Assembly (NCBI GenBank): GCA_028284155.1
Contig: JANQSF010000117.1
Span: forward strand, 1 to 64,000
DNA from: Phycisphaeraceae bacterium
Lineage (GTDB): Bacteria > Planctomycetota > Phycisphaerae > Phycisphaerales > Phycisphaeraceae
Reading direction: 5' to 3'
Length of the DNA stretch: 64,000 bases
The notes under the pieces were generated by a model. The model made no database searches, had not been told where the DNA came from, and worked only from the letters and a program-made list of their open reading frames with translations. Shown in pieces: positions 41,676-44,530 of this stretch. Position 1 is the stretch's first letter. Every line of letters begins with the position of its first letter. The position numbers and the translations under genes were made by a program.

Positions 41676-42668
41676 CTACTTCAACCACCGCGCCGCCTGA
41701 CGTGCGAAGTACGTCAGGACGATGTCGGCCCCCGCGCGGCGGATGGCGAGCAGGCTTTCCAGGACGACGTCGCGTTCATCGAGCCAACCGTTGGCCGACG
41801 CGGCTTTGAGCATCGCGTACTCGCCGCTGACCTGGTACGCCGCGACGGGCAACGAAGTCGCCTCGCGCACACGGCGGATCACGTCGAGGTACGGGCCGGC
41901 CGGCTTGACCATGACCATGTCCGCACCTTCCGCCTCGTCGTGCGCGACCTCGCGAGCCGCTTCGCGCGCGTTCGCTGGGTCCATCTGGTAGGTCAGTTTG
42001 TCGCGCGGTATCGGCTTGCTTGACCCATCCGAACGCGGCGCGGAGTCGAGCGCGTCGCGGAACGGGCCGTAGAAAGCGGACGCGTACTTGGCGGTGTAGG
42101 CGAGGATCGACACATCCGTATGACCCGCGTCGTCGAGTGCGTCGCGGATCGCGCCGACCCGTCCGTCCATCATGTCGCTGGGCGCGATGATGTCCGCCCC
42201 CGCGTCGGCCTGCGCCACCGCCTGCCTGCAAAGTACCGCCACGGTCTCGTCGTTCAGGATGCGCCCGTCGTCGCTGACAATCCCGTCGTGCCCGTCACTC
42301 GAATACGGGTCGAGCGCGACATCGGTCGTGACGATCAACTCGGGGAACCTCGACTTCAGGTCGCGGATCGTGCGCGGGATCAGACCATCGGGATTAAACG
42401 ACTCGTCGCCGGTCGGTGACTTCAATGCGTCGTCCACGCGTGGGAAGAGCACGACGGCGTTGATGCCGTCTTCGCGTGCGCCTTCGACCTCGCGCAACAG
42501 CCCACTTGGGCTGAGCCGGTGGCAACCGGGCATCGAGTCGATCGGCTGATCGTCGTCGCCCTCATGGATGAACAACGGGTAGATGAAGTGCGCAGGCGAC
42601 AGGTGCGTCTCGCGATGGAACGCGCGGATCGCGGTGTGTTTTCGGTTTCGGCGTGGTCTGCTTCGCAT
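41676..42668 (-). CDS. hemB: Delta-aminolevulinic acid dehydratase (porphobilinogen synthase)
   Basis: About 330 aa. It condenses two 5-aminolevulinate molecules to porphobilinogen in haem synthesis. The Schiff-base lysines are in ILAYTAKYASAFYGPF and MVMVKPAGPYLD. The metal site reads DVALDPYSSDGHDGI, with Asp in place of the zinc-binding cysteines, so this is the cysteine-free, magnesium-type enzyme. Other signatures are HFIYPLFIHEGDDDQPIDSM, APSDMMDGR and PVAAYQVSGEYAML. The ATG at 42668 is preferred; a TTG six bases upstream is possible. No other haem genes are adjacent. A compound palindromic repeat lies just upstream. Confidence 0.93.
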   Translation of the reverse strand: MRSRPRRNRKHTAIRAFHRETHLSPAHFIYPLFIHEGDDDQPIDSMPGCHRLSPSGLLREVEGAREDGINAVVLFPRVDDALKSPTGDESFNPDGLIPRTIRDLKSRFPELIVTTDVALDPYSSDGHDGIVSDDGRILNDETVAVLCRQAVAQADAGADIIAPSDMMDGRVGAIRDALDDAGHTDVSILAYTAKYASAFYGPFRDALDSAPRSDGSSKPIPRDKLTYQMDPANAREAAREVAHDEAEGADMVMVKPAGPYLDVIRRVREATSLPVAAYQVSGEYAMLKAASANGWLDERDVVLESLLAIRRAGADIVLTYFARQAARWLK

Positions 42669-42699
42669 CGTCAATCAACTCTCGAAGTCCCACATCGTA

Positions 42700-42900
42700 C
42701 TCGTAATCGTAATCGACCAGGCCGCGGCGTTCGTTGACTGCAAGCGTATCAAACGGCGTGATCATAGTCTTGATTGGGATTGAACCGCAGAGAGCGCAGA
42801 GGTCGCAGAGGAATTCAATTGCCTCAAACTCTGCGTCCTCTGCGCACTCTGCGGTGAAACAGTTTGGCGTGGCTTGGTCGATTACGATTACGATTACGAG
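42700..42900. repeat. Compound nested inverted repeat
   Basis: The outer arms 42700-42723 (CTCGTAATCGTAATCG then ACCAGGCC) and 42871-42900 are inverted copies that differ in one base and in the number of TAATCG hexamers (two versus three). Nested inside, ACCGCAGAGAGCGCAGAGG (42784-42802) and CCTCTGCGCACTCTGCGGT (42837-42855) form a second inverted repeat with one mismatch. The element fills the region between hemB and the M32 peptidase gene. Confidence 0.85.
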
Positions 42901-42920
42901 GACGATGACGATTGTGAGCG

Positions 42921-44465
42921 TCAATCAACGCCATAGATCGGTAAGAGTTTCGACTCAAGATAATCCATCAACGGTTCAGCGCTCAGCGGATGACCGGTGA
43001 CGTGTTCGCACAATTCGCCTGCCCGATACCGCATGCCGTGAGCGTGCACGTTTTCGTTGAGCCAGGACTTGAGCGGGCTGAACTCGCCGCGTGCGAACTG
43101 TTGGTCAAGATCGGCCAAATCGGCCCGCGCCTTGTCGAACAGTTGGGCCGCGTACAGGTTGCCGAGCGTGTAGGTCGGGAAGTAGCCGATCGCCCCCATC
43201 GACCAGTGGATGTCCTGCAGGCAGCCGTGCGCGTCGTCCGGTACGTCGACGCCGAGGTATTGCTTGTAACGCTCATTCCAGAACGCGGGCAGGTCGCCGG
43301 TGGACAGGTCGCCGCGCATCAGGGCGCGTTCGACCTCGAAGCGAACGAGGATGTGCAGGTTGTACGTCGCCTCGTCCGCCTCGACTCGGATCAGGCTCGG
43401 CCGAACGATGTTGATTCCGCCGTACACGTCGTCGATCGACAGGTCGTTCAATGCGTCCCCGAAGTAGTCTTTCAACAACGGCTGACACCACTGCCAGAAT
43501 GCGCGCGATCGCCCGACCTGGTTCTCCCACATGCGGCTTTGGCTTTCGTGGATGCCCAGCGACACGTCGTCGCCCATCGGCTCGCCGATGTGGTCGGCAG
43601 GCAGGCCCTGGCCGTAGATACCGTGGCCGGACTCGTGCATGGTCGAGCCGAGCGCGTCGCCGAGCATGTTCTTGTGAAAACGGGTTGTCATCCGCACGTC
43701 GTTGCAGTGCGTGCCGCCGCAGAACGGGTGCGTCGAACGGTCGAGTCGGCCGCGCTCGAAGTCGAAACCGATCTGCTCGGCCACGAAGCGGACGAAGCGC
43801 TCCTGCGCGTCAATCGGCAACTCGCGTTCGTTGAACGCGTTGCTCGGCGGCGTCGCGCTGCCCATGAGTTTGCCGACCAATTCGACGAGGCGAGGTCGAA
43901 GGCCGTTGAATAACGCCTCGACCTCAGCGGCCGTGCTGCCCGGCTCGTATGTATCCGCCAGCGCGTCCCACGGCTCGGCCGTGTCGCTGGTCGACAAGCA
44001 CTCGGCCTTGCGGCGTGACATCCCGACGACCTCACGCAGGCTCGGCTCGAAACGCGCAAAGTCGCTGGCCTTGCGCGCCTCTGCCCACTCGACTTTCGCC
44101 AGGCTGGTCGTGCGCGCGAACGCTTCGACGAGGTCGGTCGGCAGCTTGGTCGCCAGGTCGTACGCGCGGCGAACTTCGCGGACGTTGACAGCCTGCGGCG
44201 AAAGCGGGTCGGCCAACAGGTCGTTGTCAGCCTCGCAGTCGGCCAACCAATCGCCGACGCGCGCGTCGGTCTTGCGTTCGTGGATGAGCTTGGCCAACTG
44301 CGCGAGTTGCTTGCTGCGGAACGCGACGCCGCCGGCCGGCATCATCGTCTCCTGGTCCCAACCGAGCAGGCCGGCCGTGCCGGCAAGCAGATTCGTCTCG
44401 CGGATGTGCGCGATCAACGCGTCGTACGCGGCGGAAGTGGCGGGTTCGGCGGTCGCGGTCGTCAT
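42921..44465 (-). CDS. M32 family carboxypeptidase (Taq-type)
   Basis: 514 aa, the normal length for carboxypeptidase Taq. The zinc-binding HExxH motif is in GSTMHESGHGIYGQGL, followed by the conserved DDVSLGIHESQSRMWEN with the third ligand Glu. Other family signatures are LGWDQETMMPAGG at the N-terminus, THPFCGGTHCNDVRMTTRF before the active site, VEADEATYNLHILVRFEVE and IHWSMGAIGYFPTYTLGNLY. These cytoplasmic metallopeptidases remove C-terminal residues from peptides with broad specificity. The ATG at 44465 is used; a GTG three codons upstream is possible. It is divergent from the Nudix gene. Confidence 0.93.
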   Translation of the reverse strand: MTTATAEPATSAAYDALIAHIRETNLLAGTAGLLGWDQETMMPAGGVAFRSKQLAQLAKLIHERKTDARVGDWLADCEADNDLLADPLSPQAVNVREVRRAYDLATKLPTDLVEAFARTTSLAKVEWAEARKASDFARFEPSLREVVGMSRRKAECLSTSDTAEPWDALADTYEPGSTAAEVEALFNGLRPRLVELVGKLMGSATPPSNAFNERELPIDAQERFVRFVAEQIGFDFERGRLDRSTHPFCGGTHCNDVRMTTRFHKNMLGDALGSTMHESGHGIYGQGLPADHIGEPMGDDVSLGIHESQSRMWENQVGRSRAFWQWCQPLLKDYFGDALNDLSIDDVYGGINIVRPSLIRVEADEATYNLHILVRFEVERALMRGDLSTGDLPAFWNERYKQYLGVDVPDDAHGCLQDIHWSMGAIGYFPTYTLGNLYAAQLFDKARADLADLDQQFARGEFSPLKSWLNENVHAHGMRYRAGELCEHVTGHPLSAEPLMDYLESKLLPIYGVD

Positions 44466-44530
44466 CAAAAACACTCACGTTCAATCGAGATGATGGGGCG
44501 TATCATACGCGTTTTCCAAGGTCGAACACG

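Follow-up and report, generated by a model that had tools for sequence, protein, structure and literature searches.

A compound palindrome between the M32 carboxypeptidase and hemB genes of a Phycisphaeraceae bacterium: one palindromic repeat probably lodged in the loop of another

The 250-bp gap between the carboxypeptidase M32 gene and hemB is occupied by a compound palindrome. This probably consists of two non-coding palindromes from separate repeat families, of which the second entered the loop of the first, with the number of hexamers drifting; the order of events at the locus is one that we infer. The two families exist separately, in other lineages members of both are found in some species and missing from others at orthologous intergenic sites, and in this genome foreign palindromes lie in the loops of both. 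Insertion at the M32-hemB gap itself was not seen directly: 41 genomes were searched (including its own), of which 29 have a hemB match, and M32 occurs in the hemB flank (within 1.5 kb) only at the locus studied here, so that no close relative offers an orthologous gap for comparison, and no empty or half-filled form of the locus was found. The locus looks like a minor instance of the way in which such repeats accumulate in intergenic DNA, and not like a novel gene or machine. Its features are listed below, numbered within the window (the whole 64-kb stretch of DNA that was analysed).

41676 to 42668, minus strand: hemB, delta-aminolevulinic acid dehydratase (ALAD/hemB, PF00490), flanking gene, outside the element
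42695 to 42715, plus strand: outer left arm, three TNNTCG hexamers (NN = AC, AA, AA), with complementarity continuing to 42726
42716 to 42878, no strand: outer loop, 163 nt, containing the inner element
42771 to 42782, plus strand: TGATTGGGATTG, flank of the inner arm, also found at the inner-type copy C64
42784 to 42810, plus strand: inner left arm, three 9-mers, ACCGCAGAG AGCGCAGAG GTCGCAGAG
42829 to 42855, minus strand: inner right arm, three 9-mers, ACCGCAGAG TGCGCAGAG GACGCAGAG
42879 to 42911, minus strand: outer right arm, five TNNTCG hexamers (NN = CA, CC, AA, AA, AA), with complementarity from 42868
42921 to 44474, minus strand: carboxypeptidase Taq (M32) (Peptidase_M32, PF02074), flanking gene

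The preliminary description, made from the sequence alone, named both flanking genes correctly, as the Pfam matches confirm. It also described a second inverted repeat enclosed by an outer one, and coordinates, complementarity and fold stability all agree with this. The outer repeat (42695-42726 and 42868-42899) has arms of 32 nt that are 91% complementary, and within it the inner repeat (42784-42810 and 42829-42855) has arms of 27 nt that are 93% complementary. The sequence ACCARGCCRCG at each end of the outer loop prolongs the outer arms by about 11 nt per side. The arms of the inner hairpin are each made of three CGCAGAG-type 9-mers, which pair except for single mismatches at the unit junctions. 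Within the 64-kb window TAATCGTAATCG has five matches at one mismatch or fewer, four of them at the compound locus; the mean in shuffled sequence is 0.07, and none of 100 shuffles reaches five. On the minus strand, which is the coding strand of both genes, folding gives z = -10.1 for the complete region and z = -8.2 for the inner hairpin, with no equally stable structure among 200 shuffles in either case. The outer arms had been said to differ by exactly one TAATCG unit. This holds for TAATCG itself (two on the left, three on the right), but not for the hexamers overall, where three face five and the difference is two.

The compound block lies 9 bp from the M32 stop and 20 bp from the hemB ORF, for which the likely start is the ATG at 42668, the mechanical ORF beginning at a TTG at 42674. 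This closeness, together with the very stable coding-strand fold (z = -10.1), might be expected if selection maintained the hairpin for regulation or termination in the M32-hemB transcript. We regard such a role as very unlikely. An intrinsic terminator has a GC-rich hairpin followed by a U-run, and after the inner hairpin a T-run is absent on both strands, the sequence there being TCAATCCC on the minus strand and GAAACAG on the plus strand. Rfam gave no match at the gathering score, the only hits being miRNA families far below it. Moreover, the same families occupy unrelated gaps, and the orthologous gaps of another genus contain different palindromes or none, as described below. If the region is transcribed, the M32-hemB intergenic RNA would contain a long hairpin, which we take to be a by-product.

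The outer family occurs at 23 sites in the genome, identified by pattern and partner searches. This count excludes lone or low-complexity matches (C28:262, C41:61751, C55, C66, C80, C81, C100, C115, C122 and C125). The sites fall into three forms, C87 being the locus studied here:

Compact elements (8): C30, C38 (three elements), C39, C54:25734, C107, C134
Long-loop elements (9): C26, C28, C34, C41, C42, C59, C83:92701, C87, C91
Single recognisable arm (6): C27, C54:18689, C77, C83:96600, C136, C157

In all eight compact elements the loop measures 14-15 nt and resembles GYARYGYNNCNGAGT. The GYAACGC of the compact copies is retained against one arm in four of the nine long loops, and is absent from the loop at C87. 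According to a crude ORF call, 18 of the 23 sites are outside ORFs, for the most part only some tens of bases away from the end of a gene; those overlapping a call are C30, C34, C38a, C83b and C136.

Gain or loss of hexamers within an arm, suggested earlier for this one locus, appears to be general. By a strict count the arms are unequal in 10 of 13 pairs in this genome (C28, C34, C38c and C54b were not readable by this rule) and in 69 of 81 pairs in foreign genomes. The two arms of an element resemble each other. Their likeness is 0.354 when correctly paired against 0.208 when re-paired in this genome (p 0.011, n=13), and 0.358 against -0.12 in the foreign elements (n=81), where none of 2000 re-pairings scored as high; the arms therefore seem to arise as pairs. 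Unit order within paired arms is not significant in this genome (p 0.23), and gives p 0.001 in the foreign set, which includes several elements per genome and is thus not made up of independent cases.

These observations bear on the possibility that the outer arms came last, either as a long-loop hexamer element or as two arms formed around a pre-existing inner palindrome. Six of the nine long loops have no second copy in the genome at E <= 0.01 (40 of 607 candidates scored), so that long loops need not derive from the insertion of a repeat, and at six sites there is only a single arm; both facts would fit late formation of the arms. However, the similarity of paired arms points the other way, as do the common compact elements with a conserved 15-nt loop and the finding that in Thiocapsa marina (see below) it is the compact form that differs between species. 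We consider a late origin of the outer arms unlikely, and prefer insertion into an outer element already in place.

Other nested palindromes occur in the same genome. The outer loop at C34 contains a repeat of about 110-118 bp (L003 1524-1632), which is found in at least 28 other places in the genome at 85-93% identity (40 of 607 candidates scored); 16 copies were aligned with C34. It is an inverted pair of GTAG-type, REP-like units of the GTAGGGTGCGC type, in which a GTAGGGTGCGCTTCAGCGCACC-like sequence appears twice in inverted order, with ends like AGGCTTCGTCCGAAA and TTTCGGACAAAGCC. At C59 the outer loop holds a composite repeat, with a second copy at L259 that has no hexamer arms. Similarly, at C107:307810 and C157 other palindromes lie within the loops of inner-type 9-mer arms. 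The stability of the loop was considered as a mark of nesting and rejected: the C34 loop is no more stable than shuffled sequence although it contains a repeat, and among the nine long loops only those at C59 and C87 clearly exceed shuffles in stability. Another palindrome family (GTGCCTGTGAATGAGCGAAGCGTTTCACGG) was seen beside or inside others, at C27:56018-56142, at C87:77646-77730 and in the C107:307810 loop.

Strict pairs or arms of the inner type are present at C64, C87 and C120, and looser relatives at C68, C106, C107, C85, C157 and C11. With two mismatches the inner search gave counts below the control, and mainly places with zero or one mismatch were used; C11, a two-mismatch place, was retained since its sequence shows a pair. 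Among the loci examined, TGATTGGGATTG adjoins ACCGCAGAG at C64 and at the studied locus and nowhere else, which suggests that the copied inner unit extends past its arms on the TGATTGGGATTG side.

The proposal that the two repeats belong to different families is borne out, since each occurs without the other in this and other genomes. Outer elements lack an inner repeat of the CRCAGAG type at 22 of the 23 sites, and the inner type is found without hexamer arms at C64, C120, C68, C106 and other places. Across the phylum, 10 of 392 genomes have the paired outer pattern (TCGTNN), at 1 to 293 matches per genome when the overlapping registers of an element are counted apart, and its backwards-read control has no match in the phylum sample. 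The inner pattern is present in 34 of 384 genomes. Within this sample the only genome with both patterns is the one studied here (G000), the nine other carriers of the outer pattern having no inner match at all; the two parts are thus not constantly joined at a fixed spacing. In the order, a one-arm outer pattern was found in 3 of 151 genomes, and the backwards control gave one match, in G133.

It might still be argued that the whole compound is mobile as a single element, with the inner hairpin a normal part of it. The inner repeat does lie inside the outer one, and the outer complementarity extends about 11 nt into the loop at either end. The combination has no second copy in the genome, however, the C87 loop matching only itself, and the parts occur separately both within this genome and across genomes. 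A single composite element is accordingly highly improbable.

Sites that are filled in one species and empty in another provide further support for insertion, in addition to the independence of the families and the nested repeats at other loci. Thiocapsa marina (L155 4039-4202) has a 164-bp block with a hexamer palindrome. T. roseopersicina and Thiocapsa KS1 lack this block, and in their orthologous gap only 2 bp separate the flanks. Identity of the flanks is 92% at one end and 75-87% at the other. Read base by base, this one pair, with its diverged junction, gives no clear target-site duplication. The copy in Thiocystis minor has extra DNA in the region of the palindrome, either in the right arm or next to it. 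A MITE-like element of about 155-164 bp, with the TCGTNN palindrome as its core, has copies in Thiocapsa, Thiocystis and Thiobaca; as seen at L155 4039-4202, this purple sulphur bacterial element has imperfect outer repeats like CCTTAACCCGGCA and CCCTTATGCCGCA.

For the 9-mer palindromes, two gaps were compared in six species of one genus in the phylum. The first lies between two genes which, from reading the sequence, we take to be eno and ispD. It contains a 9-mer palindrome in G387 and none in five congeners, and the second gap likewise contains one in G346 and none in five congeners. The remaining 10 gap sequences have no 9-mer units, and several of them contain other palindromes. Also in the eno-ispD gap, G275 and G396 have counterpart palindromes of another family, that of G396 being about 140 bp longer, and the extra DNA, which lies inside it, includes a 9-mer palindrome. 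The left arms of the two have diverged, and the junction is located approximately. Taken together, at the two gaps (L334-L343) each of the six species has its own palindrome or lacks one, as though palindromes between genes were replaced rapidly at set positions.

The locus probably arose in two steps. An outer element, with tandem TNNTCG/TCGTNN arms and a short loop, would have entered the M32-hemB gap, and a palindrome with CGCAGAG-type 9-mer arms would later have entered its loop. Arms would lengthen or shorten one or more complete units at a time, by slippage or by recombination between units, and both elements may be moved by an enzyme acting in trans. A RAYT was considered for this role. 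The genome has three Y1_Tnp matches, and within 1.5 kb of these there is neither a CCRCAGAG nor a hexamer array of at least two units; nor do the three loci have the GTAG repeat of C34 (best match 14 of 22 bases). A link between RAYT and the outer or inner family was thus not seen within 1.5 kb, with the reservation that the assembly (161 contigs, 96% complete) could be missing the cognate RAYT gene.

Among known repeats, Di Nocera 2013 (PMC3733652) describes REPs and REP dimers, tagged with GTAG or CGTC, as short interspersed intergenic palindromes, often in inverted pairs with variable spacers. The elements studied here are likewise short, interspersed, intergenic and palindromic. However, a REP is a single stem-loop of 20-40 bp, one end of which bears an unpaired tag, GTAG or CGTC, while the arms here are tandem 6-mers or 9-mers with no such tag seen on outer or inner arms, and no RAYT gene adjoins them. 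Nesting itself is already known, the same paper describing REP insertion within other palindromes in A. variabilis, T. roseum and H. neapolitanus. MITEs are described in a review (PMC10969869) as small, non-coding and intergenic, with inverted repeats and a patchy distribution. Our families resemble them in size, inverted repeats and patchiness: the outer family is non-coding, dispersed and multi-copy (23 sites, 18 of them outside ORFs), and its Thiocapsa relative, a block of about 164 bp, is intergenic and cleanly present or absent. They differ in that the arms vary by whole units; no clear target duplication was seen at the Thiocapsa site, and the search for a cognate transposase, which covered Y1_Tnp, identified none. 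Insertion of ISPpu9 in REPs (reported within PMC8450116) and QMITE2 as a target of IS1111 (mentioned within PMC10969869) are similar cases of a mobile element lodged in a palindrome, but the guest here is a short non-coding palindrome.

In a wider contig scan TCGTNN palindromes were found on at least 120 stretches, and 80 loci were viewed. The query required TCGT, so that TCGT is the only core covered. Taxa among the matches listed include Planctomycetota, Verrucomicrobia, Lentisphaerae, Kiritimatiellae, Chromatiaceae (purple sulphur bacteria), Desulfobacterales, Anaerolineae, Acidobacteria, Abditibacteriales, Riflebacteria and others. Between lineages TCGT is constant, while preferences at NN shift and the loops and flanks differ. 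No description of the hexamer or 9-mer families was found in the open-access PMC literature, searched by terms and by sequence words (subscription papers being mostly outside it). The same literature gave no account of arms built from tandem units or of how these families are distributed.

We tentatively suggest, at rather less than even chances, that these repeats form an undescribed cross-phylum class of mobile palindromes. The arms would be tandem degenerate words with a fixed core and two free bases (6-mers TCGTNN; 9-mers such as CRCAGAGNN, CACCGAGNN and CGCGGATNN), with no flank or loop in common between lineages; they would gain and lose whole units, be located at the ends of genes, and offer one another places to insert. 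If so, copying or recognition of the unit, rather than of a tagged stem-loop, would separate the class from RAYT-driven REPs. The TCGTNN family is of more interest than the single locus, which is minor, and it supplies pairs of filled and empty sites that can be used to seek the mobiliser.

Elements of the TCGTNN type also shape intergenic DNA and give rise to spurious ORFs. At the studied locus an ORF of 120 aa (42562-42924, minus strand) crosses the palindrome. It has no Pfam match and is probably spurious, illustrating how palindromic repeats like this one can seed false gene calls.
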